In this document: one piece after another, positions 3,835 through 63,440 of the stretch
Layout: each line of letters opens with the position of its first letter
How positions within the stretch are numbered: position 1 is the stretch's first letter
Source: a virus
Direction: 5' to 3' (one strand)
DNA length: 63,673 nt
Virus record (IMG/VR): IMGVR_UViG_3300045970_000154
Location: 1 to 63,673 of that record
Notes under the pieces: model-generated
Databases searched by the model: none
The model's input: only the letters and a program-made list of their open reading frames with translations
Told to the model about the DNA's origin: nothing
Made by a program: the position numbers and the translations under genes

Positions 3835-5724
3835 CTATTGGGCTACAGACGCTGTTCCGTCTGGGTGCTTAGTGGCGTATATAACATTGTCATATACTTT
3901 GTCGAGAGCCAGCTTAGTATGCGCTATGGTGTAAATGCACTTGTCACGGTTTCGTAAATAGGACAGGACCCGAAACAGCCCTTCTTTGCCATCGTCATCG
4001 AGGGCAGAGAATACTTCATCCAGAGCAAGAACATTGAAACTGACTGCTCCTGCTATTTCCAACAACTCCAGAACAGAGAACAGACAGGCTAACTTCACCC
4101 TGGCCTTTTCTCCTTCTGACCAGCAGACGTACGGTATGGTCTTGTTAGCATCGGTAACGGTGAAGTCGATCTCTCCATCAGTGGTGAAGAAGGAGCAGGC
4201 AATACGACCGTTACTAATCATATCAGCATACTTACGCATTGTCAAGTTGAGGCGGCGTAGGAAGCTATCCATCTTATGTACTCGGTACCCCTTGGCACCA
4301 AGTATGCCACCCCACAGTTTCAACAGGTCAAGCCTTGCTTCGGCTTCTTCAAGCTGGAGCTTAGCAGCTACGAGCTGGTCAGATATCCTAGCATTAGTTT
4401 CAAGTTTCTGAGCGTTGACAGCTACCCTAGCTCGTTGCAGAGCGTTGAATTCAGTTGCGTCCTTCAGAGCCTTGGTTACAGATGCCAGTTCAGCCTCGAT
4501 GCGTTTTAGTTCTGCTGCCTGCTCGCTATACTCTCGAAGCAGGTTGGTGTGTCTGGTGGTGCATGCCTCGATGTTTACGTTACAGGTTGATTCTCCTTTC
4601 AGTTTAGATAGTTCCCTATTGAGATTTCCGTACTTGACCCACTCTGCTAGGTCTTCTGACAACTGAGCCTTATTATCTATTGCTTCTGATTGTGCTGCTT
4701 CCAAAACCACACGCTGCTGCTCTAGGCTATGCAGCAGCTCCGAGAAGTGACCGTACTGAACACCTTGGGAGCAGGTAGGACAGACCCCTCTTTTCATAGC
4801 TTCGTTAAGCGTCTTCAGTTCACCCTCAACCGACTTTAGTTCGGTCTGTTTCTTTACTACTTCCGACTTCCAAAAGCTCAGCTTGTCTTCTACTTCTTTT
4901 AGCGAAAGAGCTGGGAGAACGAAGCGATTAATTCCTTCGCGCAATGCCTCCCTCTTATCCCTCGCCATCTTGTCTTCGTAGTATTCTTCCATAGAAGACT
5001 CTGCTGACTTGATCTCGTTCTTGATCTGAGCCTGTATCCTAATTGACTCATCTCTTCTAGCACCCTCACCAGAGACCAGACGTTCCAGAAGCACTGTCGG
5101 CTTCTCTTCCTGGGCCTCTTCAATAGTTTCCGAGAAGCTGGCAGACAGGTTGCTGACTTGTTGGTTGAGGGTATCAATCACCCCTCTCTTACCGGTCAAG
5201 GCTTTCTCCTGGGCCTTGAGTCGGTCCAGGTGATAGTCGAGTTCGTCCATTCGCAGTATGCGATTAACGAATGCTTTGCGGCTGTTGTCGGTGGATACTT
5301 CCAACAGGTTGATGGAACTCTTTGGGGACTGGTAGGTTAAGTCTACGAACAGTGCGTAGTCGCAACCTACAATATCCTCGATGAGTTTAAGATTGTCGGT
5401 AATTTTCTTCACATGTATGGGCCTATCGTTGCGAAATATACCGATAGTCCCTGTTTTCCTAGAGTTTAAGATGCGAAACTTGTCGTGTCCTTTAGTGAAC
5501 CAAATCTCAATCTCGTACGGACGCATAGTAATGCTGTTGTTAACTTCCTCCAGCTTGGCACCTTTAGGGTTACGATTATATAATCCTTGGCATAAGGTTA
5601 AGAAGATAGAGGTCTTTGATGCACCGTTTACACCCTCAATGGAGTTGATGCCAGTTACGAAATCGAACTCCTGAACAACATAAGCGAAGCAGTCTCGGGC
5701 TACCAACTTGGTGAAGTTAATCAT
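3835..5724 (-). CDS. SbcC/gp46/D13-like recombination exonuclease ATPase subunit
   Basis: 629 residues with Rad50/SbcC architecture: Walker A near residues 31-39 (GVNGASKTS), coiled coil, zinc-hook motif CPTC near residue 313, second coiled coil, ABC signature WSEGEKARVK near 535 and Walker B VLALDEVFSALD near 566. The P-loop is odd because the Gly before the catalytic Lys is Ser. It should pair with the SbcD-like nuclease at 5942-6925 to process DNA ends. ATGA overlap with the preceding small gene. Confidence 0.93.
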   Translation of the reverse strand: MINFTKLVARDCFAYVVQEFDFVTGINSIEGVNGASKTSIFLTLCQGLYNRNPKGAKLEEVNNSITMRPYEIEIWFTKGHDKFRILNSRKTGTIGIFRNDRPIHVKKITDNLKLIEDIVGCDYALFVDLTYQSPKSSINLLEVSTDNSRKAFVNRILRMDELDYHLDRLKAQEKALTGKRGVIDTLNQQVSNLSASFSETIEEAQEEKPTVLLERLVSGEGARRDESIRIQAQIKNEIKSAESSMEEYYEDKMARDKREALREGINRFVLPALSLKEVEDKLSFWKSEVVKKQTELKSVEGELKTLNEAMKRGVCPTCSQGVQYGHFSELLHSLEQQRVVLEAAQSEAIDNKAQLSEDLAEWVKYGNLNRELSKLKGESTCNVNIEACTTRHTNLLREYSEQAAELKRIEAELASVTKALKDATEFNALQRARVAVNAQKLETNARISDQLVAAKLQLEEAEARLDLLKLWGGILGAKGYRVHKMDSFLRRLNLTMRKYADMISNGRIACSFFTTDGEIDFTVTDANKTIPYVCWSEGEKARVKLACLFSVLELLEIAGAVSFNVLALDEVFSALDDDGKEGLFRVLSYLRNRDKCIYTIAHTKLALDKVYDNVIYATKHPDGTASVAQ

Positions 5725-10170: not shown

Positions 10171-11546
10171 ATACCCTCCACGTTTATAGTCGTCTTGTCA
10201 TACCGCCTGCTGACCAGAGTAGCAATACGCAGACTGTTATCAGCCGTTTTGTCCTGGTACTTGACCTCAGCAATACCTTTTAGGTTTCCGCAAAGGTACT
10301 CAGCCCACCACTCGATGCGTTCATCGTCATCTATCCCCGATCCGACTCGTGTGGTTATAACTCCATCAGAGCAGATAAGACCTCCCATCTGCCCTACGTA
10401 CTTCGTATCCGGCTCACCTTCGTAAGCTCCGATGATAGCCAAGTCCATTGTGTAGAACTGCTTGAGTTTCAGGATTGCGTTGCTGCGTTTGAACTCGTAC
10501 TTCGCCCAGATACACTTGACCATGACCCCCTCTCCAGCAGGCATGGTGTAGGTCTGAGTCTTGCCTTTAGGGTCGGTGAAGGCGTAGACTCTGCCTCCTT
10601 GAGCGAGAACCTTATCGTAGACTGCCCATACATCTTTGGAGCAGGTAGCTATGACGTTAGGAACTACCGAGACGTTTGGTAAGTTGAACCCGCAATGCTC
10701 AAACAGAGCAGTGAGTTCCATCTTCCTAGTCGCTAAAGACTTTACTTCGCCCTTCTTACCGGCAGACTCGAAGTAGTCAATGTCCAACACATCCCATACG
10801 AAGTAACCAAGGTACTCCAGGACTTCTTCGGGAGTAGTGTGGCCAGACGTAACCATCGACTTGCCACCTTCAAACTGCCACTTGTGGTCTTTATGCTTGA
10901 TGAAGGTCTTGTTGTAGGGGCAGAACTTGGTGGCTAGAATTTCACCATCAAGCACGAAGTCTTTTCCGGGGTAGAGGTTGAGAATCTGCTTACCCAGAAC
11001 GTCTAAGCCCTCGAACTCGAAACCTTCTCGGGAGTAGAAGTTTACTTTGTCATTCTTGCAGACTGCTATGGTGCGCAGACCGTCTAGTTTCTCTTCAACA
11101 ACAACCGGGTACTCCAAATCATCCAGTTCTTTTACGGTGTTGGCTAGTTGAACTTTGAACTCTGGTATCAGTCCTGGGAAAGCTTTGTTGATGGTGCTGT
11201 CTATGCCTACGTTCAGGTCCCTTTGGATGATTCTGACGACCCACTTCGCACCCTCTTCGGTACACTTGGAGAGTAGTCTTTTAATCATTGCTTTGGCTGC
11301 GTTACTGCCTGTTGTGTGCTCTGAAAGAAGCATGAGAATCTGCTGTAGTTCTTTTGAAATGTCAGGCTGGACTAGGTTATAGGTTTCAGGTAGGTCTAGT
11401 TTACTGACTCGGTAGGTAATGAACTTGTTGTAGGTGAGCCAGAGCAGAAGCCTTAAGGTTGGAGTATCGTTACGCTGTAAAATTGCTAGCTTGTCATTCT
11501 TAGACGCGGTTTCTGACAACGCCTGGAACACTTTAAATTCTTGCAT
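10167..11546 (-). CDS. ATP-dependent DNA ligase
   Basis: 459 residues. Nucleotidyltransferase motif I is EEKLDGLRTIAV near residue 150, with the Lys that accepts AMP. FVLDGEIL and VMVKCIWAKYEFKRSN correspond to motifs III/IV and V. The N-terminal 130 residues form a helical DNA-binding region. Joins nicks at the replication fork. An imperfect palindrome (11563-11578) sits 16 nt before the start. Confidence 0.93.
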   Translation of the reverse strand: MQEFKVFQALSETASKNDKLAILQRNDTPTLRLLLWLTYNKFITYRVSKLDLPETYNLVQPDISKELQQILMLLSEHTTGSNAAKAMIKRLLSKCTEEGAKWVVRIIQRDLNVGIDSTINKAFPGLIPEFKVQLANTVKELDDLEYPVVVEEKLDGLRTIAVCKNDKVNFYSREGFEFEGLDVLGKQILNLYPGKDFVLDGEILATKFCPYNKTFIKHKDHKWQFEGGKSMVTSGHTTPEEVLEYLGYFVWDVLDIDYFESAGKKGEVKSLATRKMELTALFEHCGFNLPNVSVVPNVIATCSKDVWAVYDKVLAQGGRVYAFTDPKGKTQTYTMPAGEGVMVKCIWAKYEFKRSNAILKLKQFYTMDLAIIGAYEGEPDTKYVGQMGGLICSDGVITTRVGSGIDDDERIEWWAEYLCGNLKGIAEVKYQDKTADNSLRIATLVSRRYDKTTINVEGM

Positions 11547-16027: not shown

Positions 16028-17410
16028 CTACAGCAAGTTACTTGCTATCTCAGCCAGTTCGCTGCGCTCACCCTTGGTCAGAGTAATATGCCCCGCAATG
16101 GCTTCCGCTTTCATTCTCTCCACTACATACGTAAGTCCGTTACTTGACGCATCGAGGAACGGGTGGTCAATCTGGTAGGGGTCACCAGTAAGAACAATCT
16201 TGGTGCCCTCCCCTGCCCTTGTGATGATCGTCTTGACTTCGTGCGGGGTCAGGTTCTGCGCTTCGTCAATAATCATGTACTGCTTTGGTATGGAACGACC
16301 ACGAATGTACATCAGAGGCTCAATCTGCATGATGCCCAGAGCTACCAGCTCCTTGTGGCAACCAGAGTAGCGACCTTCTTCTTTCTCTTCCTCCACGGAA
16401 GGTGAGAACCCTTCCCGCTTAACTCTCTTCTTAGGCTTAGGAAGCTTCGGAGTAGGTGAGGAGTAACCACCGAGCAGGAACTCTACGTTGTCGTAGATAG
16501 GCTGCATCCAAGGGTTGAGTTTCTCTTCCAGATCTCCAGGCAGGAACCCAATGTCCTTGCCCATCGGGAAGACTGGTCTGGATACCAACATCTTGCTGTA
16601 CTTGAAGTCCTCAGCTACCTTGTTGAGTCCTGCTGCAATAGCCATCAGTGTCTTGCCTGTGCCAGCCTTTCCGACCAACGTAACGAGCTTGATGTCATCA
16701 TTAAGCAGCAGATCCATTGCCAGCATCTGCTCGGTGTTTCTTGGAGATAACCCCCACGCAACCGGATTAGGGTCGATTCTGACCAGGATGTTATCCTTTT
16801 TGGAGTACCGAGTAGGTATCACCAACTCGGGATGTGAGGGACAAGTGAGCAAAATATACTCGTTGTCTAGGCAACTGATGTCACTAGGAACTGCGTACAG
16901 GCTTTCCACTGGGGTAGTGGTTATGAACCCACTCTCATACGAAACTGTCCTGAACCCTGGGTACAGGTCGTCTACCGCTATCTTGTTGTTCTCAAAGTCT
17001 TCGGCTTCCAGCCCTAAGGCGTCAGCTTTTATTCTGAGGTTGATGTCTCGGGAGACAAGAATTGCATTGTCTTTTCTCGGGAGGTCAAGAGCTACCGCCA
17101 AGATTCGATTGTCAGCTACACTAGGATCGAGGCTTGGGATAGCCATGTCGGAGGTGTATAACGCAATCCTCAGCGTTCCACCCTTAGAGTTAACCTGTAC
17201 TCCCTCGACAAGTGAACCCGCCATACGCAGAGTGTCTAACTGACGCGCTACTTGACGAGCGTTCCTACCCAGCTCGTCCTGGTTCTTTTTAAAGTTATCG
17301 AGTTCCTCAAGTACGGTGATCGGGATAATTACGTTGTGTTCGTCAAACTTGTAGATGCTCTCTGCTGACAGCAGTAGAACATTCGTGTCTAGGACGTAGG
17401 TATAAATCAA
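16028..17410 (-). CDS. phoH: PhoH-like ATPase with N-terminal PIN domain
   Basis: 460 residues. Residues 1-130 are a PIN nuclease domain (YVLDTNVLLL, PITVLEELDNFKKN, LVSRDINLRIKA). The PhoH ATPase follows with LVGKAGTGKTLMA near 248 and MIIDEAQNLTPHEVK near 381. The start is TTG behind AAGGAG, overlapping the RNA ligase stop. PIN-PhoH proteins act as RNA helicase/ribonucleases in bacteria, so a role in RNA turnover is likely. Confidence 0.92.
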   Translation of the reverse strand: MIYTYVLDTNVLLLSAESIYKFDEHNVIIPITVLEELDNFKKNQDELGRNARQVARQLDTLRMAGSLVEGVQVNSKGGTLRIALYTSDMAIPSLDPSVADNRILAVALDLPRKDNAILVSRDINLRIKADALGLEAEDFENNKIAVDDLYPGFRTVSYESGFITTTPVESLYAVPSDISCLDNEYILLTCPSHPELVIPTRYSKKDNILVRIDPNPVAWGLSPRNTEQMLAMDLLLNDDIKLVTLVGKAGTGKTLMAIAAGLNKVAEDFKYSKMLVSRPVFPMGKDIGFLPGDLEEKLNPWMQPIYDNVEFLLGGYSSPTPKLPKPKKRVKREGFSPSVEEEKEEGRYSGCHKELVALGIMQIEPLMYIRGRSIPKQYMIIDEAQNLTPHEVKTIITRAGEGTKIVLTGDPYQIDHPFLDASSNGLTYVVERMKAEAIAGHITLTKGERSELAEIASNLL

Positions 17411-18015
17411 AGGGTCTCCTTTACTTGAAATTTATGCAGTTCATCATGCTCAAGCGTCTTCTTCATTCCAAAGTTACCTGCCGTATGCCAGATTATAATA
17501 CCTTCGGCCTTCATGAACCCTGGCGATGCCACGCTACCTTCTGTGCGTAGCCTATTGACTACCTTGTCAACCTCACGAGTATCAAACGCCCCCGAGTACA
17601 GGACAGGAACCACTGAGCAGCACACAGGCCGGTCGTCGCCATACCACCTGGAAACATTGAACAGGGAGAAGATCTTCTCTTCAACTAGGTAGCGCCTAGC
17701 AATCCCTTTTCCCCACCACTCTCCCGTATGGTGACCTACGCCCAACTTGAGCAGTTCGTCTTTGTTCCTTTGGCACCACCCAGCAAAGCCGTAGTTATCA
17801 GTCTTTATAGTCAACCATCGGTTACGACTACCTGCTAGCATAATCAAACCTAGCTCTCTACTCTGCTCAACAGGGAGTAGGTTGAACTCACTGTTGTAGT
17901 CTCCTTCTTGTGATATACAGACTGAGGAGTTTGTTCCGTCCAGTTTTTCGGTAATTATGATGTCCCTAGAAAACCTAGCCATCTTAGGAAACGGTGTGAA
18001 TTCAGGTGTTGACAT
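17407..18015 (-). CDS. RNA ligase (Rnl2-like nucleotidyltransferase)
   Basis: 202 residues. KLDGTN with Lys24 is the adenylylation site; GEWWGKGI (about 97-104) is motif III/IIIa, MKAEGIII motif IV and MKKTLE motif V. It contains little beyond the catalytic domain. Seals RNA nicks. With RtcB and the CCA-adding enzyme elsewhere in the window, repair of cleaved tRNAs is a reasonable inference. Confidence 0.85.
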   Translation of the reverse strand: MSTPEFTPFPKMARFSRDIIITEKLDGTNSSVCISQEGDYNSEFNLLPVEQSRELGLIMLAGSRNRWLTIKTDNYGFAGWCQRNKDELLKLGVGHHTGEWWGKGIARRYLVEEKIFSLFNVSRWYGDDRPVCCSVVPVLYSGAFDTREVDKVVNRLRTEGSVASPGFMKAEGIIIWHTAGNFGMKKTLEHDELHKFQVKETL

Positions 18016-31761: not shown

Positions 31762-32880
31762 TTATCCTTTGACGTTGATGATAGGTCTGACATAATGCTT
31801 TATCTCAATCATATCCGCCTGTTGACGGATGACCTCGAAAATATCCTTATAGGCCAGAGGAGACTCGTCCAGGGTTTCTGCATCCACCTTGGCAACTATG
31901 TCTCCCATAGTCGCCTTGAACTCTTCCAGGTTCAGTAACTGCTGCGCAGCCTTTCGACCCAACACGCGGCCTGCCCCATGTGAACTTGACCACAGAGCCG
32001 GAGCATATCCTTTACCTTCCACGATGAAGGAGCCGTACTTCATGTTACCTGGGATGACACCCATCATTCCTGCTTCGGCATGGGTAGCGCCTTTTCTGTG
32101 AATCCAAAGACCATCCTTGAGTTCAGCATGGTTGTGGTTGCGGTTGATAAGGTCGCGCCAAGTAACCTCTCCCTGGCAGAACCTTATCATCTGTGACGCC
32201 ACCTTTCTAACTAACTTAAGGCGATTCTCAAGGGCAAACTCAAGGCAGAAGTTCATGTCCATGAGGTAGTCTCTACCGTTGTCGGAGTCTACCTCAAATC
32301 CAAAGTGACCTTCTCGGGCCTTTCCATCACCAGACGCAAGCTTCATGTAGTGCGTAGCAACTGCATGCCCAATACCGCGAGAGCCAGAGTGGATGATAAT
32401 CCAAACAACCTCTCGCTCATCGTAGCCAATCTCGATGAAGTGGTTTCCACCACCCAAAGATCCTAGCTGGCGCAGTCCGTTCTTCTGGAATATGTCGGCA
32501 AGGTAGTCAGATCCAGGAAGTGAGCATCCTTTATCCCATACTGAGTCATGCTGGTTGTGGTTGAAGCCGACTGGTATGTTGTCATAGATACCCTTGAAGA
32601 TACTCTGCGCCTTGCACTTTACTGTGTACAGCGGGAAGGTGGTAGGTACGGCGCACATCCCGCAGCCAATATCGTAGCCTACAAAGCTAGGATAAATATA
32701 GTCTTTTACCGCTACTACAGCACCAATCGGCAGTGTGTACCCTACGTGAACATCGGGCATAAGTGCTCCCTGCACAACAGTATCCAGGAGCATAGCCTCA
32801 CGAAATTGTTCGAGAGCCTTGGGGTCTACCGTCTCGGAAAATATCCGGTAGGGCTTATCTATTCCATCGAGTAGTTGCAT
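31762..32880 (-). CDS. rtcB: RtcB-family RNA-splicing ligase
   Basis: 372 residues. DVHVGYTLPIGAV, GYDIGCGMCAV (metal Cys), SLGGGNHFIEIG, IIIHSGSRGIGHAVA, HNHAEL and LWSSSHGAGRVLGRKAA (guanylylated His) are all present. RtcB joins RNA ends bearing 2',3'-cyclic phosphate and 5'-OH, the ends left by many tRNA-cleaving toxins. Confidence 0.95.
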   Translation of the reverse strand: MQLLDGIDKPYRIFSETVDPKALEQFREAMLLDTVVQGALMPDVHVGYTLPIGAVVAVKDYIYPSFVGYDIGCGMCAVPTTFPLYTVKCKAQSIFKGIYDNIPVGFNHNQHDSVWDKGCSLPGSDYLADIFQKNGLRQLGSLGGGNHFIEIGYDEREVVWIIIHSGSRGIGHAVATHYMKLASGDGKAREGHFGFEVDSDNGRDYLMDMNFCLEFALENRLKLVRKVASQMIRFCQGEVTWRDLINRNHNHAELKDGLWIHRKGATHAEAGMMGVIPGNMKYGSFIVEGKGYAPALWSSSHGAGRVLGRKAAQQLLNLEEFKATMGDIVAKVDAETLDESPLAYKDIFEVIRQQADMIEIKHYVRPIINVKG

Positions 32881-54400: not shown

Positions 54401-55612
54401 CTACTTCCCCCTGACGACCATGTAGACACTCGTGTATCTCTGATTAACCCAGTCCTGGATGTAGCACTTATCCTTTCCCTTGATGTGCTCCGGTATAACT
54501 ATGACTGCCGTAGATAGTGACTGATGGAGATCCTTCACTGTCTTCCAGTGTGCTGTCTCGAACGCATGGTCACAGTTACATGCTGAGAAGAAATCCTCCC
54601 TGATAGGCTCCCTGATACTCCTAAAGAACCTGACCAGTTTCCCTGCCCTAATGTCGAGCATGTTCTGCGCTTTCATGTGGTACTCAGCCACCAGAAGAGA
54701 TAACTGCATAGACCTTGCTGAGAACCTATGATCCTTGAACCAGTTGACAGCCAAGTCCTTAGACCGTGCTTCATGACCGTGGTGTGCAGGCCACTCTTCT
54801 GATGGAGTATGCCCCTTGCCGAAATCATGGCAGAGAACAGCCAGGAACACATCGAAGCTGTACTTGAGAGTCTTACAGCGGTCGATAGCCTTCATGGTAT
54901 GCCCATAGGCAGTATCGTAGCCATGATGCTCAATCGGACCAGCAGGAACCTTCCGCAGCAAGTCAAGGGGTGCGAAGTGATAGTGTAAGCAGTCAGCCGC
55001 AGCGAGTATGTCGAAGAACTTGCTGGGCTTGGCGCACTGCTCGTATACCTTCCGCAGCTCCTTCTCGACCCTCTCAGCGTTCACATGAACGATCTGAGGG
55101 CCGTACTCTTTCATTTTGTCATAGGTCTTTTCTTCTATGACGAAATCCAGCTTAGCTGCGAACCGCGCAGCTCGGAATATACGCAGGGGGTCGTCGGCAA
55201 AGGCAGTCGTGCCTATCGCCCGAATGGTCTTGTTTTCGATATCCTTCACACCTCCTGTAGGGTCGATGATTCTGCCATCGTAAACACTCTCAGCGATGGC
55301 ATTGATGGTGAAGTCACGGCGGTGAAGGTCTTCGATCAGGGTGGCTCCTCTCCACCCGAAGTCCTTATAACCAGGACCTGTTGATTTTTCAGAACGGGTG
55401 AGTGCTACTTCGTTCCCGTCCACCAAGTATACGGGGAAGTCGTTGCCAACTCGTTTAGCGGTAGGAAATACCCGCTTAAACGTGTAGTCGGCGCACTCCA
55501 TTACATAGTCAATGTCCTGAATAGGCAGACCGAGTATTGAGTCTCTGATGCAGCCGCCTACCTTGTAAGCGTAGCAGCTTGCATCTTTGAAATTGACTGG
55601 GGTAGGCGGCAT
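54401..55612 (-). CDS. CCA-adding tRNA nucleotidyltransferase
   Basis: 403 residues from the ATG at 55612 (GGAG). YKVGGCIRDSILGLPIQDIDYV has the GG motif and the DxD metal ligands; RRDFTINAIA and DPLRIFRAARFAAKL follow. HDFGKGH begins a C-terminal HD domain. Class II enzyme that builds or repairs the 3' CCA of tRNAs. The tRNA-Gly-like gene at 59207 lacks an encoded CCA. Confidence 0.93.
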   Translation of the reverse strand: MPPTPVNFKDASCYAYKVGGCIRDSILGLPIQDIDYVMECADYTFKRVFPTAKRVGNDFPVYLVDGNEVALTRSEKSTGPGYKDFGWRGATLIEDLHRRDFTINAIAESVYDGRIIDPTGGVKDIENKTIRAIGTTAFADDPLRIFRAARFAAKLDFVIEEKTYDKMKEYGPQIVHVNAERVEKELRKVYEQCAKPSKFFDILAAADCLHYHFAPLDLLRKVPAGPIEHHGYDTAYGHTMKAIDRCKTLKYSFDVFLAVLCHDFGKGHTPSEEWPAHHGHEARSKDLAVNWFKDHRFSARSMQLSLLVAEYHMKAQNMLDIRAGKLVRFFRSIREPIREDFFSACNCDHAFETAHWKTVKDLHQSLSTAVIVIPEHIKGKDKCYIQDWVNQRYTSVYMVVRGK

Positions 55613-55639
55613 GTTGCTCTCCTTTCTAGTTAGTGATTG

Positions 55640-55655
55640 GTGCGACATGTCGCAC
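55640..55655. repeat. 16-bp palindrome
   Basis: Perfect copy, 27 nt before the CCA-adding-enzyme start. Confidence 0.95.
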
Positions 55656-55658
55656 CGG

Positions 55659-55823
55659 CTACAGAGAAACCACGAAGTCTCCCTGATCGAACACAAGGTC
55701 AACGGTAAGGATTTCTTCGTTACAGTCGTAGTGCTCGTTGTACTTCACAGCCTCAAGCAGCCCATTCTCCTCTGACTCCTCGATTAAGGCGGATAGCTTG
55801 TTCATAAGATCGTTTACTGTCAC
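55659..55823 (-). CDS. Small acidic protein, paralog of the next gene
   Basis: 54 residues; GTG start (AAGGAG). MTVNDLMNKLSALIEESEEN shares the start pattern MTVxxLxxKLxxL with the gene at 55844. Function unknown. Confidence 0.65.
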   Translation of the reverse strand: MTVNDLMNKLSALIEESEENGLLEAVKYNEHYDCNEEILTVDLVFDQGDFVVSL

Positions 55824-57388: not shown

Positions 57389-57401
57389 ACGTCCTCCATT
57401 G

Positions 57402-57417
57402 GTGCGACATGTCGCAC
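57402..57417. repeat. 16-bp palindrome
   Basis: Perfect copy, in the leader of the broken ORF. Next to it TTCACATCTG, the promoter-upstream element. Confidence 0.95.
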
Positions 57418-57766
57418 TAAGTAGACAGATGTGAATTATAATTGCCCAGCACGACAGCCTAGCGGGAACCAGAAGGGCAATAGACCAGCCCCTATGAACC
57501 GTGACCCTAGGATTTTATCGAGCTTTAATATCTGACACATGATCTCTGACGCAAAGAGAGTTGATACTTGAGGTCTGAACTCTGACCTCTGAACTCTGAA
57601 CTTTAACGGGAAGGTCGAGGCATTTTAGGCACCAGCTTCAAAGGGTCTATGCCCTCCACCGATGCCTACCTCACCTGTTCGTTATTGTCTTTCGCGCATG
57701 AGTCCCGGATAACCCTCCGGGAAGGGGAGTCTAGTTCTCCAGTTTTCATCGTGCTGGGCAGCACCG
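57418..57766. other. 349-bp gap without a gene
   Basis: No convincing ORF on either strand. It holds short direct repeats of CTCTGAA/CTCTGAC (57575-57601), a hairpin CCCGGA...TCCGGG near 57703-57720, and paired GGCAT/ATGCC segments around 57620-57690. May be a structured leader or a decayed region; no tRNA fold found. Confidence 0.5.
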
Positions 57767-58003
57767 TTAGTGCGACATGTCGCAGTAGTGAGCGATAATA
57801 CCCTCAGCTACATGTCTCTGCATGTCTCCTGTGATCTCGTGACCGGTATCAGAGATGAATATCCAGTACTGCTTGAACAGATCCAAGGTAATGTAGCCGA
57901 CCTCTCGTCCATTTAGTCGCGCAGCCCTTTCAGCGTACTTCTCTCTATAAGCAGGCTGAAAGGTTACGTAGTTCTTACCCACATCGTACCGGCTGTTAGC
58001 CAT
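57767..58003 (-). CDS. Hypothetical protein ending in the palindrome
   Basis: 78 residues. YITLDLFKQYWIFISDTGHEI, ending HYCDMSH where the last six residues come from a palindrome variant. TAATG overlap with the upstream gene. Confidence 0.62.
   Translation of the reverse strand: MANSRYDVGKNYVTFQPAYREKYAERAARLNGREVGYITLDLFKQYWIFISDTGHEITGDMQRHVAEGIIAHYCDMSH
57770..57785. repeat. 16-bp palindrome, one end changed
   Basis: GTGCGACATGTCGCAG, forming the 3' end of the gene at 57767. Confidence 0.85.
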
Positions 58004-58620
58004 TAGATCTCAACCTCCGTTATGGCATTAGAGGTGGACAGGGCGAGGTCTACATTCGCCTCGAACACATCAATCTCCTCCTCCATGCTGATGATGAACT
58101 CTCTCATCTTGAGCGGGTCGAGAAGAGTGTACTCGTTGTTGGCCAGGAAGCCCTTGCTGAAGGCAGCGTCACCCTCAACGTCAGCCTTGCCGTCCTTGCC
58201 GCGAGAGGCCAGGAGCTGCTGGTCGAGCCTCTGTTTGACTTCGAGGTTCCCCCGATCAACCTGCATGGTAGCCTTGGCGTAGGCACTCTTTGCAGCCTTG
58301 AGGGTCTCTTTCTGGTACTCGATGGAGGATTTCCTCTCGATAGCCTCCGCGACGGTCATTTTGACACCGCCAACTTCAACGGTCGTGGTGGCGTTGCTCA
58401 CCACGATAGCTGATTTGGCAGTCATGCGGTTGGCGATCAGGGCCTTGAGGGAGTCAACGCTGGCCAGAGCGGTCCTGTTGAACTCTTCCGCCGAGTTGAA
58501 ACCGGTAGGGAAACTCGACCCGATCTTTACGCCGCAGAACGTGGCATCCTGCGTGGCAGATTTGATACGCTTGTCGAGCAACTTGAGGTCGTTGAGGAGT
58601 GCTGCAATGGATTTCTTCAT
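58003..58620 (-). CDS. Hypothetical protein, coiled-coil
   Basis: 205 residues: ALLNDLKLLDKRIKSATQDA, VGGVKMTVAEAIERKSSIEY, LKAAKSAYAKATMQVDRGNL. A Thr/Val-rich strand sits between helical regions. Similar proteins of about 200 residues occur in large phages. Function unknown. Confidence 0.7.
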   Translation of the reverse strand: MKKSIAALLNDLKLLDKRIKSATQDATFCGVKIGSSFPTGFNSAEEFNRTALASVDSLKALIANRMTAKSAIVVSNATTTVEVGGVKMTVAEAIERKSSIEYQKETLKAAKSAYAKATMQVDRGNLEVKQRLDQQLLASRGKDGKADVEGDAAFSKGFLANNEYTLLDPLKMREFIISMEEEIDVFEANVDLALSTSNAITEVEI

Positions 58621-58665
58621 CGGTTAATCTCCTTGAGTTTTGAGGGTTGATGTTGGCGGCGGTTA

Positions 58666-58681
58666 GTGCGACATGTCGCAA
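58666..58681. repeat. 16-bp palindrome, one end changed
   Basis: GTGCGACATGTCGCAA, between the tRNA at 58693 and the gene starting at 58620. Confidence 0.85.
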
Positions 58682-58692
58682 TACTGTGAAAT

Positions 58693-58780
58693 TGGCAGAG
58701 AGTAGAGGATTCGAACCTCTGTGAACCTTGCGGTTGTCGGTTTTGGAGACCGATGCTATCGACCACTAAGCGAACTCCCT
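58693..58780 (-). tRNA. Class II tRNA with CCA anticodon (Ser-like body)
   Basis: 88 nt. Acceptor AGGGAGT/ACTCTCT, G73, encoded CCA. D-arm GCT/AGC with GG in the loop. Anticodon stem TCGGT/ACCGA, loop CTCCAAA (anticodon CCA, reads UGG). 16-nt variable region with stem AACC-GCAA-GGTT. T-arm AGAGG-TTCGAAT-CCTCT. A long variable arm plus G73 is serine-type, yet CCA is the tryptophan anticodon. Confidence 0.88.
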
Positions 58781-58786
58781 GTAAAT

Positions 58787-58860
58787 TGGCGTCTGTCCTA
58801 GGAAGTTTCATCCTAGATTTCCCTTCGGGGGTTGGGCGTTCTGGTTTAAACTACACAGAC
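58787..58860 (-). tRNA. tRNA-like element, degenerate
   Basis: Six-bp end stem GTCTGT/ACAGAC, then G and CCA at the 3' end, six bases before the tRNA above. A T-arm-like hairpin CTAGGA/TCCTAG has a non-standard loop; no acceptable anticodon arm. Possibly a decaying tRNA or a tRNA mimic. Confidence 0.3.
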
Positions 58861-58872
58861 GTAACTGGGTAA

Positions 58873-59154
58873 TTAGAAGTAGTGCCGCTGGGCGTCGCTC
58901 AACAGCGTCGGTCCGGGATTGTACGGGAGAACTGAGTCAATCCCGCAAGCGGGGCATATTGCGGTTGCTCCCATATCCTCATAGGTGATGATCTCAGAGG
59001 GAAGGAAGACCCTCAAACAGTGGTAGCAGGTACACTCTTTGGCCTCCATAACCTTCTGATGATTCTTGAAGGAATGCTGAGACATATTTGCTATGTCGGG
59101 AGTAGTCGGTGGTGGGTTGCCCCAAACACGTTGCATAATGCTTCCGAGTGTCAT
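58873..59154 (-). CDS. Zinc-ribbon protein, conserved in phages
   Basis: 93 residues. KECTCYHCLRVFLPSEI and AICPACGIDSVLPY match a phage family (CxYCxxxF ... TAxCPxCGxDSV). AAGGAG upstream. Function unknown. Confidence 0.75.
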   Translation of the reverse strand: MTLGSIMQRVWGNPPPTTPDIANMSQHSFKNHQKVMEAKECTCYHCLRVFLPSEIITYEDMGATAICPACGIDSVLPYNPGPTLLSDAQRHYF

Positions 59155-59178
59155 GGCCTATCTCCTTATCTTGAGTTA

Positions 59179-59194
59179 GTGCGACATGTCGCAA
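59179..59194. repeat. 16-bp palindrome, one end changed
   Basis: GTGCGACATGTCGCAA, 12 bases downstream of the tRNA-Gly-like gene and 24 nt before the start at 59154. Confidence 0.85.
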
Positions 59195-59206
59195 TGATTA
59201 GTTATC

Positions 59207-59280
59207 CATCCGTAGTCAGGCTCGAACTGACATTTCCCGCTGGGAGGCAAGGCGACCGATTCCCGTTAGTCGATACGGAC
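59207..59280 (-). tRNA. tRNA-Gly(CCC)-like, no encoded CCA
   Basis: 74 nt. Acceptor GTCCGTA/TACGGAT (7 pairs, one G-U); D-arm GAC/GTC; perfect T-arm GTCAG-TTCGAGC-CTGAC. Anticodon stem CTTGC/GCGGG is weak and its loop CTCCCA is one base short; if functional the anticodon is CCC. CCA must be added, fitting the phage CCA-adding enzyme. Confidence 0.6.
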
Positions 59281-60100
59281 ATGGGTTGTGGCTCTACTTT
59301 AAATGGCGAGACATACATCTCAGCGTCGCCGCTTTTAACCATCCTGGCCTAGCACTTCGCACCAGACAATTCCCGACTAGTCGGGAAATTGCTTCGTAGT
59401 TGACCGATGTTAAGGACACCGGACGAACCTTTACTATATGTGACTCCTTGCCGTTCCTGTACGTGCGTTCCCACTAAAGAGAAATGTCGCACCTCATTGC
59501 TACTAGGCAGGTTGTCAGAGCTTGCGCTCTAATGTCAGGTGTTACCTGACTCGTTGGCTATCGCCGGTAGTGGGACTGTTAGGGCAACCCACTACTATAT
59601 TCACAGATTTCATCATCTATACCGCGCTGCGTTGAAAGCGTAGCACTTATTTTTAGCTACGTAGTTTGACGTAGCATTCCAAAAAGAGCATGACGTAGGT
59701 CTCTTTTCAACTCCCCCGCTGTTAAGCCCCGGAGCAAGACAAAGGCGGAAAGATTATCCTTCAGGCGGTGGTCAGGCGGCTTTGTAGGCCGACAACCATT
59801 CGACTGTCATAGCTTGCGCTATGAGGATTGGGTACCAAGTAATACCCTTCCGTGTCTAAGGTCGCACATTAATTAGTGTGCTAGTCTGTTTGGTTATGGT
59901 GTGATGTATCACCATGCCTAATCGTTCGGGACTTACGCGAAGATGCCTCACGGCAATGTCGCTTTGCCCTATCTAAGGAACCGCTTAAGTCGGCGGTTAA
60001 ACCAAAGACCTTTTGGCTATTCAGTTGAGAAAGACCATGTTCCTAGTGGCGCGGCAAGTCTCCAGTAGTGACCCCGAAAGGTTCTGTTGACGTTCGTTGT
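59281..60100 (-). ncRNA. Putative large structured non-coding RNA
   Basis: About 0.8 kb without a convincing ORF, preceded by a promoter and followed by tRNAs. Many strong hairpins, including AGAGC-GCAA-GCTCT (59517-59530), CATAGC-GCAA-GCTATG (59808-59823) with GNRA loops, and GTCAGGT...ACCTGAC (59534-59550). RNA motif copy 3 lies near its 3' end. Size, phage context and tRNA neighbours recall ornate large RNAs such as GOLLD or ROOL; I cannot assign it to either. Confidence 0.6.
59342..59403 (-). ncRNA. CTAGGCC RNA motif, copy 3
   Basis: CTACGAAGC, hairpin AATTTCCCGA/TCGGGAATT, then CTGG - TGCGAAGTGCTAGG - CCAG. The flanking GTAGAGC is about 40 nt further away than in other copies, separated by an inserted hairpin. 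Confidence 0.6.
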
Positions 60101-60106
60101 GAGATA

Positions 60107-60135
60107 ACTATACAGAAGCGACTAACTACAGTCAA
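60107..60135 (-). promoter_or_regulatory. Promoter of the putative large ncRNA
   Basis: TTGACT (60130-60135), 17-nt spacer, TATAGT (60107-60112) on the minus strand. Transcription should start near 60100. Confidence 0.78.
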
Positions 60136-60180
60136 GCAATTTATTTAGGGTACACCGTTTTTTATTTCGACCTCCTGTTT

Positions 60181-60200
60181 GGTGCGACATATGTCGCACC
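60181..60200. repeat. Palindrome variant GGTGCGACATATGTCGCACC
   Basis: Centre expanded by AT; arms intact. Upstream of the ncRNA promoter. Confidence 0.9.
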
Positions 60201-60211
60201 GGCAAGCTCTA

Positions 60212-60300
60212 CATTAGTTACCCCGGCCTAGCAAGTTCGCACCGGACATTTGCGTCCGGGACGCAAATGCTTCGTGGCTTACCTGCTTGACGGAGCAGGC
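60212..60300 (-). ncRNA. CTAGGCC RNA motif, copy 4
   Basis: CCACGAAGC, a hairpin formed by the 19-bp palindrome, then TCCGG - TGCGAACTTGCTAGG - CCGG, then GGTAACTAATGTAGAGC. An additional 5' hairpin CCTGCT/AGCAGG. Here the 19-bp palindrome has replaced the P1 hairpin of other copies. Confidence 0.6.
60249..60267. repeat. 19-bp palindrome TTTGCGTCCGGGACGCAAA
   Basis: Perfect copy, serving as the first hairpin of RNA motif copy 4. Confidence 0.95.
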
Positions 60301-60316
60301 ACCGGTAGATAATGGT

Positions 60317-60502
60317 TTAGGCGGGAGTAACGAGAGCCGGTGCGAGACCAGCAGCGGCTTTCTGGACGATAATTTCCAAGCACCGGGAGATAACGTCTTC
60401 GGAGGTGATAAGCCCCTCTTCAAACTCCAGTTCCGCCTCTTCCATCCGGTTGAACATTTCCTGGAACAGGCTGATCTTCTTTTTATAATCTTCGTTGCTC
60501 AT
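60317..60502 (-). CDS. 61-residue helical protein
   Basis: MSNEDYKKKISLFQEMFNRM, then EEGLITSEDVISRCLEIIV. AAGGAG upstream. A 19-bp palindrome lies 14 nt before the start. Not recognised. Confidence 0.65.
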   Translation of the reverse strand: MSNEDYKKKISLFQEMFNRMEEAELEFEEGLITSEDVISRCLEIIVQKAAAGLAPALVTPA

Positions 60503-60516
60503 TTCAGTCTCCTTGG

Positions 60517-60535
60517 TTTGCGTCCGGGACGCAAA
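60517..60535. repeat. 19-bp palindrome
   Basis: Perfect copy, directly before the SD of the gene at 60502. Confidence 0.95.
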
Positions 60536-60538
60536 GAG

Positions 60539-60670
60539 TTACTTGATGATTTTGCCCTTGACGATCACATCGTTCGGGAACTGCCCCACTTCGCATCCTG
60601 CGGCCCAGAGGATCTGACCGATCTTTCCGCGTTTCGTTTCCTTGGCCCAATCTCTCATCGAAGGTTTCAT
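60539..60670 (-). CDS. 43-residue protein
   Basis: MKPSMRDWAKETKRGKIGQI, ending PNDVIVKGKIIK. AAAAGGAG before the ATG. Not recognised. Confidence 0.6.
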   Translation of the reverse strand: MKPSMRDWAKETKRGKIGQILWAAGCEVGQFPNDVIVKGKIIK

Positions 60671-60921
60671 CGCTTGCTCCTTTTGGTGCGACGTGTCGCA
60701 CCTGTGATCTGATACTCCTTAGACCAGCACTGCCCGACCTGAGACGCACCTTTAGTGCAACCAGCAGCAGCGCGACAGGTAGTGCAGAGTTCCGCAACTG
60801 CGGAAGCATAAGATTGCGGGAACGAAGACAACTTTGGTGGATTGAATTTCACCGTAGCCGGTAAGTGTCTGCTCTTCGCAACGTCGAACGTGTTATCGTG
60901 AAACGCAGTTGAAACACTCAT
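60667..60921 (-). CDS. Cys-containing protein reading through a palindrome
   Basis: 84 residues. ELCTTCRAAAGCTKGASQVG carries spaced Cys. The end (ITGATRRTKRSKR) is encoded by a palindrome variant and the SD of the next gene. AAGGAG upstream. Confidence 0.65.
   Translation of the reverse strand: MSVSTAFHDNTFDVAKSRHLPATVKFNPPKLSSFPQSYASAVAELCTTCRAAAGCTKGASQVGQCWSKEYQITGATRRTKRSKR
60686..60701. repeat. 16-bp palindrome, centre ACGTGT
   Basis: GTGCGACGTGTCGCAC; 15 nt before the start at 60670 and within the upstream gene. Confidence 0.9.
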
Positions 60922-60922
60922 G

Positions 60923-61192
60923 TCAGTCTCCTTGGTTTGCGTCCGGGACGCAAAGCTTGTACCGTTTAGCGTAGCGTTTCCACTTCAGTTCCTTCGCGCC
61001 AACCCCAGACAACTCAATAACGCACTTGGCGAGGTCAAGCTGGATGGACTCCACGAGAGCCGACAGTCGCTCGATCTCTTCGGTCAGGTTTTTCCTTTCA
61101 GTTTCGCAAATCCACATACGGTAATCAAACAGCTCTTTCGGTGTCGCTCTCTGGTACTTGCCTCGTCCTTCGTAGCTGCGAACTTCGCTCAT
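60923..61192 (-). CDS. Coiled-coil protein reading through the 19-bp palindrome
   Basis: 89 residues. LTEEIERLSALVESIQLDLA predicts coiled coil. The C-terminus LCVPDANQGD comes from the 19-bp palindrome. The ATG at 61192 follows GGAG with no spacing, so the true start is uncertain. Confidence 0.55.
   Translation of the reverse strand: MSEVRSYEGRGKYQRATPKELFDYRMWICETERKNLTEEIERLSALVESIQLDLAKCVIELSGVGAKELKWKRYAKRYKLCVPDANQGD
60936..60954. repeat. 19-bp palindrome
   Basis: Perfect copy; leader of the gene at 60921 and 3' coding end of the gene at 61192. Confidence 0.95.
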
Positions 61193-61201
61193 CTCATCTC
61201 C

Positions 61202-61220
61202 TTTGCGTCCGGGACGCAAA
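61202..61220. repeat. 19-bp palindrome
   Basis: Perfect copy just before the start at 61192. Confidence 0.95.
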
Positions 61221-61237
61221 CCGTGTTGTTGTCGTTG

Positions 61238-61255
61238 GTGCGACATTTGTCGCAC
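61238..61255. repeat. 16-bp palindrome family, centre ATTTGT
   Basis: GTGCGACATTTGTCGCAC, two extra central bases. Directly after the stop of 61256-61417; the only spot with both palindrome types back to back in one leader besides 62538-62577. Confidence 0.9.
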
Positions 61256-61417
61256 CTACAGGATATCCCGAAGCTCGAACGAGTAGGTGTCAGTCACGGC
61301 GGACGTAGACATACCGGTGAGGCAACTCATCTCGATGATGGCGTCGTCCAGGTCGATGCACTCTCCCCTAAGCACTTCCTTGTCAGTAGCTTTACCGCGA
61401 ACAATTACATACATCAT
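61256..61417 (-). CDS. Small protein, RNA motif in leader
   Basis: 53 residues from the ATG at 61417 (AAAGGGG). MMYVIVRGKATDKEVLRGEC, then DDAIIEMSCLTG. RNA motif copy 5 ends about 30 nt upstream. Confidence 0.62.
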   Translation of the reverse strand: MMYVIVRGKATDKEVLRGECIDLDDAIIEMSCLTGMSTSAVTDTYSFELRDIL

Positions 61418-61445
61418 ACCTACCCCTTTCGTGTCCTCCACATTA

Positions 61446-61505
61446 ATTGCTCCGGCCTAGGATTTCGCACCGGACGTTGCACAAGCGCAACGCTTCGTGG
61501 TTTGA
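61446..61505 (-). ncRNA. CTAGGCC RNA motif, copy 5
   Basis: ACCACGAAGC, hairpin GTTGC-GCTTGT-GCAAC, then TCCGG - TGCGAAATCCTAGG - CCGGA, then GCAATTAATGTGGAG. An upstream hairpin GCGGGAT/ATCCCGC. Confidence 0.6.
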
Positions 61506-61599
61506 GCGGGATGGTTAATCCCGCTATTTGTACCCATCACCAAGGACAGGCACCGTCACATTATAAACATAGGCAGCTCCTTTAGGGTAGAGGCTTGAG

Positions 61600-61617
61600 G
61601 TGCGACATGTGTCGCAC
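61600..61617. repeat. 16-bp palindrome family, centre ATGTGT
   Basis: GTGCGACATGTGTCGCAC, 15 bases past the stop at 61633. Confidence 0.9.
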
Positions 61618-61632
61618 CTCTCAATCAGTGGG

Positions 61633-62184
61633 CTAGGCAGCGGCAACCGTAGCCTGGGCACGCAGGGCGATCTCCGCCTGAACCTGATGCAGCAGGGCGG
61701 TCAGTTCGGCGTCGGTCAGGGACGAGAGGGACTTCGTCTCAGAAGCGGCTTTCTGGAGTTCATTAGCGGCCTCAGCAGCAGCCTTTTCAGCAGCTTTTTT
61801 GGCAACTTCGGCGGCTTTTTCGGCGGCTTTTTCGGCACCCGTCAGCTCAACCGGCTTCGGTTTTTCGATCATGAGTCCGGTGACAGGGTCGGCAACACAG
61901 TTGCGCTCGAACATCTTGGAGAGCGAGCGGTGAGCGGCCCACGCGTCGGGATTCCCTTTGAGGGAATCGACGGAGAAAGCCAGCCGGAAGCGGTCTTTGG
62001 CGAAGTTGAGGAAGTCGACGTGCTTGACTTCATCTTCTTTGGCCATTGCGATGAACAGTGCGTTGCCGTTGGCGATCTTGCCGTGAGCGACGGACAGACC
62101 TTTGGCCAGCTTGCCGTACTCATCGACCCGAAGAGCGTTGATGGTAGTAGCGACGGACAGGACGATCTCGATTTTAACGGACAT
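61633..62184 (-). CDS. Hypothetical protein with Ala/Lys/Glu-rich helical tail
   Basis: 183 residues from the ATG at 62184 (AAGGAG). A folded N-terminal half (MSVKIEIVLSVATTINALRV), then a long EKAAEKAAEVAKKAAEKAA helix and a C-terminal SLTDAELTALLHQVQAEIAL. Its own promoter lies at 62321-62348. Possibly a DNA-binding or scaffold protein. Confidence 0.7.
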   Translation of the reverse strand: MSVKIEIVLSVATTINALRVDEYGKLAKGLSVAHGKIANGNALFIAMAKEDEVKHVDFLNFAKDRFRLAFSVDSLKGNPDAWAAHRSLSKMFERNCVADPVTGLMIEKPKPVELTGAEKAAEKAAEVAKKAAEKAAAEAANELQKAASETKSLSSLTDAELTALLHQVQAEIALRAQATVAAA

Positions 62185-62200
62185 GACATTCTCCTTTTTG

Positions 62201-62218
62201 GTGCGACTTGTGTCGCAC
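62201..62218. repeat. 16-bp palindrome family, centre TTGTGT
   Basis: GTGCGACTTGTGTCGCAC, 16 nt before the start at 62184. Confidence 0.85.
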
Positions 62219-62242
62219 TTGGTTGATGTTGCGTGAACTTGA

Positions 62243-62261
62243 TTTGCGTCCCGGACGCAAA
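62243..62261. repeat. 19-bp palindrome
   Basis: TTTGCGTCCCGGACGCAAA, centre C instead of G, between promoter and leader palindrome. Confidence 0.95.
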
Positions 62262-62320
62262 GGATAACCTCACTTGATGCGTCCCGGTTGCGGTGACTTG
62301 CCTCTCTTGACCGTGAATAC

Positions 62321-62348
62321 ATTATAACACAACTGGATTCTTAGTCAA
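62321..62348 (-). promoter_or_regulatory. Sigma70-type promoter
   Basis: TTGACT, 16-nt spacer, TATAAT on the minus strand, upstream element TCACAACTGCTTA. Confidence 0.78.
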
Positions 62349-62377
62349 GCATTACTTTTTAAGCAGTTGTGATTAGT

Positions 62378-62527
62378 TTAGCAGTAAAAAAATTCAGCGA
62401 ACTTCTCATAATTCTCTTCCGTCATACAGCCAGACTGGTACAGCTCAAAAATGTTGTAGCGGATAGCCTGCTTTCCCTCTTTAGTTTCGCCGTTGTAGTA
62501 CCCTTGAAAAGACGCCGTGATACTCAT
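62378..62527 (-). CDS. 49-residue protein
   Basis: MSITASFQGYYNGETKEGKQ, then EENYEKFAEFFYC. AAGGGGG upstream; both palindromes and a promoter (62620-62647) precede it. Confidence 0.65.
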   Translation of the reverse strand: MSITASFQGYYNGETKEGKQAIRYNIFELYQSGCMTEENYEKFAEFFYC

Positions 62528-62537
62528 CTCATCCCCC

Positions 62538-62556
62538 TTTGCGTCCGGGACGCAAA
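62538..62556. repeat. 19-bp palindrome
   Basis: Perfect copy, 10 nt before the start at 62527. Confidence 0.95.
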
Positions 62557-62559
62557 CCG

Positions 62560-62577
62560 TTGCGACAAGTGTCGCAC
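62560..62577. repeat. 16-bp palindrome family, degenerate
   Basis: TTGCGACAAGTGTCGCAC, next to the 19-bp palindrome. Confidence 0.75.
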
Positions 62578-62619
62578 CGTCCAGCGTCCCTGTTAGTTGC
62601 CTCTCTCCAGCGTGAAAAC

Positions 62620-62647
62620 ATTATACCATAAGTAGATTTTTAGTCAA
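62620..62647 (-). promoter_or_regulatory. Sigma70-type promoter
   Basis: TTGACT, 16-nt spacer, TATAAT on the minus strand; drives 62378-62527. Confidence 0.78.
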
Positions 62648-62677
62648 GCTATTTCTTTTATCATTCCAAGCACTTAC

Positions 62678-62696
62678 TTTGCGTCCGGGACGCAAA
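62678..62696. repeat. 19-bp palindrome
   Basis: Perfect copy; no gene nearby. Confidence 0.95.
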
Positions 62697-62835
62697 TGCT
62701 GACGCATTTGGCGACCAAGGTACGCAAACCACATTTTTTTCCTTTTCGACACCTTGCACATTCTTTTCCTATCAACGCTTGCGCGATATAGTGGTTATCC
62801 TTTAATCATCCTACTGAATACTGAAAAGCTTTTAC

Positions 62836-62854
62836 TTTGCGTCCGGGACGCAAA
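62836..62854. repeat. 19-bp palindrome
   Basis: Perfect copy, downstream of the promoter at 62902-62929. Confidence 0.95.
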
Positions 62855-62901
62855 TGGTTCTGGGCAGTTACTCGTTGCGTGATACTCTCCATCGTGAAGA
62901 C

Positions 62902-62929
62902 ATTATACCACAACTGGATTCTTAGTCAA
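62902..62929 (-). promoter_or_regulatory. Sigma70-type promoter with no clear gene
   Basis: TTGACT, 16-nt spacer, TATAAT on the minus strand, very similar to the promoter at 62321-62348. The first 220 bases downstream carry no convincing gene. Confidence 0.72.
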
Positions 62930-62996
62930 GTTTTATTATCTATCCTATAGCGGATAGTTAAACATTTTATTTTGGTATGCAAAGCGGCCTTTCTTT

Positions 62997-63106
62997 TTCG
63001 GTGACAGTTTCGGTGAACCATCAAAGACATTTTCGGTGAACCATCAAAGACATTTTCGGTGACGGATTCGGTGAACCATCAAAGACATTTTCGGTGACGG
63101 ATTCGG
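62997..63106. repeat. Iteron-like direct repeats
   Basis: Unit of 23 bp containing CGGTGAACCATCAAAGACAT, twice in perfect tandem (63008-63030, 63031-63053) and a third copy ending at 63088; between and after them TTTCGGTGACGGATTCGG occurs twice. Confidence 0.88.
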
Positions 63107-63156
63107 CTTGTCCCGAATTCTCGCCTTTTCTTATTCCTAGTCAATTTCTACATACC

Positions 63157-63175
63157 TTTGCGTCCGGGACGCAAA
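63157..63175. repeat. 19-bp palindrome
   Basis: Perfect copy in the gene-free segment. Confidence 0.95.
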
Positions 63176-63198
63176 CCATACGCGAATAATCCGTACAG

Positions 63199-63216
63199 TG
63201 CGACAAATGTCGCAAC
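63199..63216. repeat. 16-bp palindrome family, degenerate
   Basis: GTGCGACAAATGTCGCAA, in the gene-free segment. Confidence 0.75.
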
Positions 63217-63412
63217 ATATTCCTTAAAAGACACTTATAATACTCCAAGCAAGTCACTTGTAACACAGTCAACGGGTGTTGACTGTTTTACATCTTTACT
63301 GTTCTACAAGTAAATTGGTTGCGCTCTTTAAAATGTGTATCATACACGCGTAGAGAATTATGAAAAATGTCTATTATGCGCGCGCGCCTTATGATGGCTG
63401 GTATAGTTATGT

Positions 63413-63431
63413 TTTGCGTCCAGGACGCAAA
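63413..63431. repeat. 19-bp palindrome
   Basis: TTTGCGTCCAGGACGCAAA, centre A; 9 bases before the tandem array. Confidence 0.95.
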
Positions 63432-63440
63432 TAAGGCATC

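Follow-up and report, generated by a model that had tools for sequence, protein, structure and literature searches.

A phage tRNA that joins a tryptophan anticodon to a class II scaffold, and its long-arm relatives in viral contigs

The tRNA gene described here lies on a linear 63.7-kb IMG/VR record, the contig of its source phage, which was analysed over its whole length of 63,673 nucleotides (the window). Its anticodon is CCA and its variable arm is long. It is probably functional, receiving tryptophan from the host tryptophanyl-tRNA synthetase (TrpRS) and delivering it at UGG, on a class II instead of a class I scaffold. Textbook tRNAs with long variable arms are those for serine, leucine, selenocysteine and, in bacteria, tyrosine. 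An earlier note on this DNA had described a serine-like tRNA which could put serine at UGG, serve as a decoy for anticodon nucleases or carry another amino acid; the last of these options would now seem to be the best one, with tryptophan as the amino acid.

ARAGORN, run on the window, called one clean tRNA, a minus-strand tRNA-Trp(cca) whose ends are exactly 58693 and 58780, and the sequence scores 55.3 bits against Rfam RF00005, the gathering score of which is 29. The gene is 88 nt long, has G73 and an encoded CCA end, and reads, 5' to 3', AGGGAGT-TC-GCTTAGTGGTCGATAGC-A-TCGGT-CTCCAAA-ACCGA-CAACCGCAAGGTTCAC-AGAGG-TTCGAAT-CCTCT-ACTCTCT-G-CCA. The earlier description as a class II tRNA with a CCA anticodon is thereby confirmed, and all arms fold well, as it had stated, since every stem closes in the parsed cloverleaf: 7 of 7 pairs in the acceptor stem (one of them G.U), 5 of 5 in both the anticodon and the T stem, and 3 bp in the D arm, where T13.T22 is unpaired. 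Class II tRNAs commonly have positions 13 and 22 unpaired. The variable region, also correctly described as long, comprises 16 nt (C-AACC-GCAA-GGTT-CAC) with a 4-bp stem. A chance fold was ruled out, as no tRNA was called by ARAGORN when the window was Markov-shuffled 100 times (6.4 Mb); the free-energy folding of the tRNA gave a z-score of -1.15, fold energy alone not being diagnostic. The positions of the tRNA, its parts and the genes discussed below are given in Table 1.

Table 1. Coordinates of the class II CCA tRNA, its structural parts and selected genes of the window
Feature	Position	Strand	Basis or remark
Whole tRNA, class II architecture, anticodon CCA	58693..58780	-	ARAGORN; Rfam RF00005; shuffles
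Acceptor 5' strand AGGGAGT, A1 at 58780	58774..58780	-	Pairs with 58697-58703; A1-U72 is a Trp-type first pair
D arm GCTTAGTGGTCGATAGC, three pairs, 13-22 unpaired, 20a/20b present	58755..58771	-	Parsed cloverleaf
Anticodon arm TCGGT-CTCCAAA-ACCGA	58737..58753	-	Parsed cloverleaf; GGTCTCCAAAACC occurs in bacterial tRNA-Trp too
Anticodon CCA, reads UGG	58744..58746	-	ARAGORN
Long variable arm, unpaired bases: one 5', three 3'	58721..58736	-	Parsed cloverleaf; geometry compared with phage Ser, Leu, Tyr
T arm AGAGG-TTCGAAT-CCTCT	58704..58720	-	Parsed cloverleaf
Acceptor 3' strand ACTCTCT (U72 58697), G73 (58696), CCA (58693-58695)	58693..58703	-	Sequence; parsed cloverleaf
Tail-fibre-family gene directly downstream of the tRNA	58003..58620	-	phrog_1491, E 3.5e-55
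tRNA nucleotidyltransferase (CCA-adding enzyme)	54401..55702	-	phrog_2244, E 1e-82; PDB CCA-adding enzymes
RtcB-type RNA ligase	31762..32880	-	phrog_1075, E 5e-103; PDB RtcB
RNA ligase (PF09414), possible tRNA-repair context	17407..18015	-	Pfam, E 1.9e-7, above gathering score

The anticodon region had been read in the earlier note as that of a serine tRNA with one base changed. This is true by sequence, as GGTCTCCAAAACC equals the serine CGA arm with a single change, but GGTCTCCAAAACC is also, verbatim, the arm of ordinary bacterial tRNA-Trp (e.g. L465, CCGGTCTCCAAAACCGG), so that no anticodon mutation need be assumed. All 16 bacterial tRNA-Trp checked have A1-U72 and G73, while 12 of 13 bacterial tRNA-Ser checked have G1-C72; the phage tRNA has A1-U72. 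From the bacterial tryptophan identity set (G73, A1-U72, G2-C71, G3-C70, G4-C69, A9 and CCA; PMC9976931), it contains G73, A1-U72, G2-C71, G4-C69 and CCA, and it thus resembles bacterial class I tRNA-Trp(CCA) in these bases as well as in its anticodon arm and in UGG decoding. It lacks G3-C70 and A9, which are replaced by G3.U70 and C9, and differs further by its class II D arm and its 16-nt variable region, the latter being of 4-5 nt (class I) in all 16 bacterial tRNA-Trp parsed, a length typical of tRNA-Trp but not one on which its function depends. The bacterial serine set consists of G73, C72, G2-C71, R4-Y69, C11-G24, G30-C40 and a large variable region (PMC9976931), of which only C72 is missing. 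The D arm is likewise shared with phage and bacterial tRNA-Ser, whereas U72 instead of C72, G3.U70 instead of A3-U70 and the Trp anticodon arm set the phage tRNA apart from them. The anticodon is CCA and not one of the serine anticodons (NGA or GCU); this leaves charging with serine possible, because SerRS does not read the anticodon (PMC9976931). In the identity analysis, which the earlier note had proposed, most elements of both sets are present, while G3-C70, A9 and C72 are absent.

The serine-like body claimed for this tRNA is borne out. Among annotated phage sequences it comes closest, at 76%, to the tRNA-Ser(GCU) genes of Klebsiella and E. coli phages, and the nearest of 1813 phage tRNAs, with the variable arm set aside, are tRNA-Ser (0.77). 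The log-odds of its acceptor stem, -0.4 with phage sets and -2.3 with small bacterial sets, lie between the Ser and Trp distributions, and by this stem it is one of the three that most resemble serine tRNAs among the 62 distinct class II CCA tRNAs of the matches listed (see below). At the 3' base of the variable arm it has three unpaired nucleotides, an arrangement found in 1 of 112 phage tRNA-Ser, in 30 of 55 tRNA-Tyr and in 16 of the 62 class II CCA tRNAs among the matches listed, whereas one or two unpaired nucleotides are found in 94 of the 112 phage tRNA-Ser. Since SerRS relies mainly on the long variable arm, the three unpaired nucleotides speak against efficient serylation. A serine-like body, a Trp anticodon arm and A1-U72 together make this tRNA, by its sequence, a Ser/Trp hybrid.

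Where this could be checked, at two sites of the phage PhoH protein, UGG is tryptophan in this phage. W301 of PhoH aligned with W in 14 of 14 comparisons, and at these two sites none of 28 comparisons aligned a UGG position with serine. Tryptophan makes up 1.2% of residues, and no avoidance was seen.

When IMG/VR was scanned with a motif for CCA tRNAs whose variable region is long, at least 119 stretches were obtained, in which at least 62 distinct class II CCA tRNAs were identified by ARAGORN and a cloverleaf parser. Among the matches listed, 61 of 62 have G73 and 59 of 62 have U72, mostly as A1-U72 or G1.U72; U72 together with G73 occurs in 58 of 62 compared to 4 of 113 phage tRNA-Ser, and U72 alone in 59 of 62 compared to 9 of 113 (Fisher p 6e-33, a nominal value because the sequences are related). 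A classifier using the acceptor stem and N73, for which phage tRNAs of the Ser, Leu, Tyr and class I Trp types served as the training set, was correct in 391 of 427 leave-one-out trials and placed 58 of the 62 among the matches listed with class I tRNA-Trp. The bodies of these matches form 20 clusters at 80% identity, and the nearest bodies are class I tRNA-Trp for 42 of 61 and tRNA-Ser for 10 of 61. This diversity of bodies and the mixed nearest neighbours suggest that class II CCA tRNAs may have more than one origin. In a second scan of IMG/VR, neutral to arm length and parsed strictly (120 stretches), 81 contigs carried only class I CCA tRNAs and 16 carried class II, one of them both, which corresponds to ~16%, or about one in six, of the CCA tRNAs with the scanned motif. 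Class I and class II CCA tRNAs share a contig in 5 loci and are adjacent in 2 of these.

The same long-arm pattern was run on 84,980 bacterial and archaeal genomes and gave at least 118 stretches. Only 5 of the 118 matches listed were class II CCA tRNAs, all on MAG contigs, one being identical to a phage tRNA and another having A73. On these listed matches a host or prophage tRNA was rejected, and it is strongly suggested that the class II CCA tRNA is phage-specific. Within the family, a serine-like acceptor stem seemed to go along with an arm base unlike that of serine tRNAs, but the correlation was not significant. One class II CCA tRNA, at 4186-4272 of L047, has G1-C72, G2-C71, A3-U70 and a single unpaired base at the 3' arm base, and is the survey's best candidate for a genuine tRNA of the serine type that bears a Trp anticodon. 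A frequent sub-family of the class II CCA tRNAs, comprising L002, L006, L012, L024 and their relatives, shares the D arm CGGTGCAGTTGGAGTGGCAC and C8, U8 being near-universal in tRNAs.

Long arms with a stem were also found on His, Asn, Cys, Lys, Ile and Met tRNAs of the same contigs (loci L002-L245). The usual discriminator of the isotype is kept in 54 of 64 non-Trp long-arm phage tRNAs, including C73 in 8 of 9 His and U73 in 6 of 7 Cys tRNAs, and G73 was found in none of the 64 where it was not expected. As they mostly keep their own discriminators, the long-arm His, Asn, Cys and other such tRNAs are not serine tRNAs with altered anticodons. Features of the class II core tend to accompany the long arm, positions 13 and 22 being unpaired in 59% of the long-arm compared to 20% of the short-arm tRNAs. 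A T5-like contig (L126) carries a long-arm tRNA-Cys; another tRNA of this contig, at 3768-3840, has the anticodon UUA and would decode UAA, a stop codon.

In GenBank, the Caulobacter phages CcrColossus and CcrPW have mutually identical class II tRNAs, annotated simply as tRNA-Trp, on which no remark was found in the literature; that of CcrColossus lies at 59240-59325 of JX100810. They share with the tRNA described here the class II scaffold, the CCA anticodon, A1-U72, G73 and the encoded CCA end, but have another body sequence and belong to another phage lineage. Brevundimonas phages have a related tRNA-Trp with a variable region of intermediate length (8 nt). No description of a class II tRNA-Trp in phages was found in open PMC full texts, and such tRNAs are mentioned neither in a review of non-canonical tRNAs (PMC7609411) nor in a paper on anticodon-loop changes in phage tRNAs (PMC10264068). 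A phage tRNA-Trp with class II architecture is not previously described in the literature covered, although the sequences were already public as tRNA-Trp. Two known types of tRNA were considered and rejected. Allo-tRNAs, which are mostly charged with serine, also combine a long variable arm with an unexpected anticodon, but have an 8/4 or 9/3 acceptor branch, whereas that of the phage tRNA is an ordinary 7/5. The Hirsh-type UGA-reading tRNA-Trp, which is marked by A24 in the D stem, was ruled out by C11-G24.

The CCA-adding enzyme, the RtcB ligase and the RNA ligase of the phage (Table 1) belong to types which take part in tRNA repair in other systems, and their combination fits a virus exposed to tRNA damage. 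Relatives of the tail-fibre-family gene were found in T5-like contigs (33-44% identity), a distant link of the phage to T5-like phages. The phage DNA polymerase matches thousands of phages at below 60%. The CCA tRNA described here was found in none of 13 relatives of the source phage.

Several other features were observed around the tRNA. At 59206-59281 (minus strand) lies a tRNA-like sequence to which ARAGORN assigns no anticodon; its anticodon loop has 6 nt, G1.U72 and G73 are present, and a CCA end is not encoded. This is likely the remnant of a decayed tRNA or a mimic of one. The same strand has, directly upstream of the tRNAs, a region of ~1 kb (59295-60290) without convincing genes. The RNA folding z-score of this region is -5.5 (0 of 20 shuffles), and a search of Rfam with a cutoff as lax as E 10 gave nothing beyond chance matches. 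The region may be a large structured phage RNA comparable to GOLLD or ROOL, from an undescribed family. The motif ACGAAGCA-[hairpin]-GUGCGAA-n-UGCUAGGCC is present at 59345-59415 and 60225-60290 (minus strand), where the hairpins differ in sequence while pairing is kept in both copies, and a similar element is located at 10640-10720 (minus strand) of another IMG/VR contig (L382), upstream of a small gene. This repeat is possibly a new small RNA motif. Two families of perfect palindromes lie between the genes of 57398-63433, with ~11 GTGCGACATGTCGCAC-like copies and 10 copies of TTTGCGTCCGGGACGCAAA, and are possible regulatory or protein-binding sites. The extreme contig end (63390-63665) consists of a 23-bp tandem repeat array.

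If both TrpRS and the host SerRS charged the tRNA, a low level of serine would be inserted at UGG, a case of statistical mistranslation, either as a side effect or with a function. The serine-like body with most of the published serine elements, a synthetase that does not read the anticodon (PMC9976931) and an acceptor stem between the two distributions are in favour of such a dual identity, which is nevertheless unlikely in view of U72 in place of C72, the arm base unlike that of tRNA-Ser (1 of 112) and the tryptophan typing of the family (58 of 62 among the matches listed). The same serine-like features would also suit a missense tRNA charged by SerRS, by which UGG would be read as serine late in infection, and one other family member, L047, looks much more like a true serine tRNA with a Trp anticodon. 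However, serine insertion at UGG, the first suggestion of the earlier note, is not the best-supported reading given A1-U72, the three unpaired bases at the arm base, an anticodon arm that is the normal Trp arm and a family with a Trp signature; at the two testable PhoH sites, one of them an invariant Trp, UGG was never aligned with Ser, and tryptophan is not avoided. We therefore consider a missense tRNA very unlikely.

Phage defences that cut tRNA exist, tRNA-Trp included, and VapC52 cleaves the tRNA-Trp of phage D29 in vitro (PMC13273310), so that the tRNA could be imagined as a decoy or sponge which takes no part in translation but soaks up anticodon nucleases. This appears highly improbable, since the features needed for translation are intact (G73, encoded CCA, A37, U33 and the acceptor identity bases) and since, in the closest studied case, a change of the anticodon abolished the rescue by a phage tRNA-Tyr against retron-Eco7, from which the authors presume that a translation function is needed (PMC11555353). 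Evasion of anticodon nucleases would be a plausible role, rather than that of a decoy. A decaying or unexpressed gene without function would be in line with the promoter scan, in which no sigma-70-like promoter was found, and with the degenerate tRNA-like sequence at its side. It is hardly credible for a gene with no stem defect, an encoded CCA end and an Rfam score of 55 bits, the unusual type of which recurs in many unrelated phages with the arms maintained (variable stems of 3.84 bp compared to 2.80 bp in shuffles).

A functional tRNA that delivers tryptophan at UGG, the reading we prefer, would require TrpRS to read the acceptor end and the anticodon and to tolerate the long arm. The scaffold could have begun as the body of a serine-type tRNA, or as a Ser/Trp hybrid, and then have had its 1-72 pair re-tuned. 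Tyrosine tRNAs are normally class II. Host nucleases that cut tRNA-Trp or class I bodies would recognise the class II tRNA poorly, and UGG translation would continue; that its advantage lies in this poor recognition during infection is a tentative proposal, which may or may not hold. It is also possible that the origin was neutral, an available class II body having been re-tuned to tryptophan. The occurrence of class I and class II CCA tRNAs on one contig would fit a backup of different shape. Cleavage of tRNA-Trp(CCA) after position 36 is documented in the Salmonella SOS response (PMC7790460), and in tRNA-Tyr the variable loop is where retron-Eco7 and Septu cleave, the T5 tRNA-Tyr being resistant by means of its distinctive variable loop (PMC13096335). 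Like this tRNA-Tyr of T5-like phages, the tRNA described here has a variable loop unlike that of the host tRNA and, as proposed, would sustain translation in the face of a defence that cuts tRNAs. However, the arm of the T5-like tRNA-Tyr is altered and not newly acquired, and evasion is experimental there and only inferred here.

In a wider perspective, tRNAs for class I amino acids (tryptophan above all, but also histidine, asparagine, cysteine and lysine) on class II bodies could form a widespread and undescribed phage class, selected because they escape cutting by bacterial defences that act through recognition of the class I body or its variable loop, a generalisation which we regard as rather doubtful. 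If about one in six phage tRNA-Trp genes with the scanned motif are class II and carry Trp identity bases, architecture and identity would have been uncoupled repeatedly in viruses. These tRNAs would then allow the features that TrpRS and SerRS actually recognise to be studied by natural experiment, and would supply genetic-code engineering with ready-made Trp tRNAs that have a long arm; if the present member were charged with both amino acids, it would be an instance of UGG ambiguity in nature. They would also offer a testable reason for the retention of tRNAs by phages, namely resistance by shape and not by changes of the anticodon loop.
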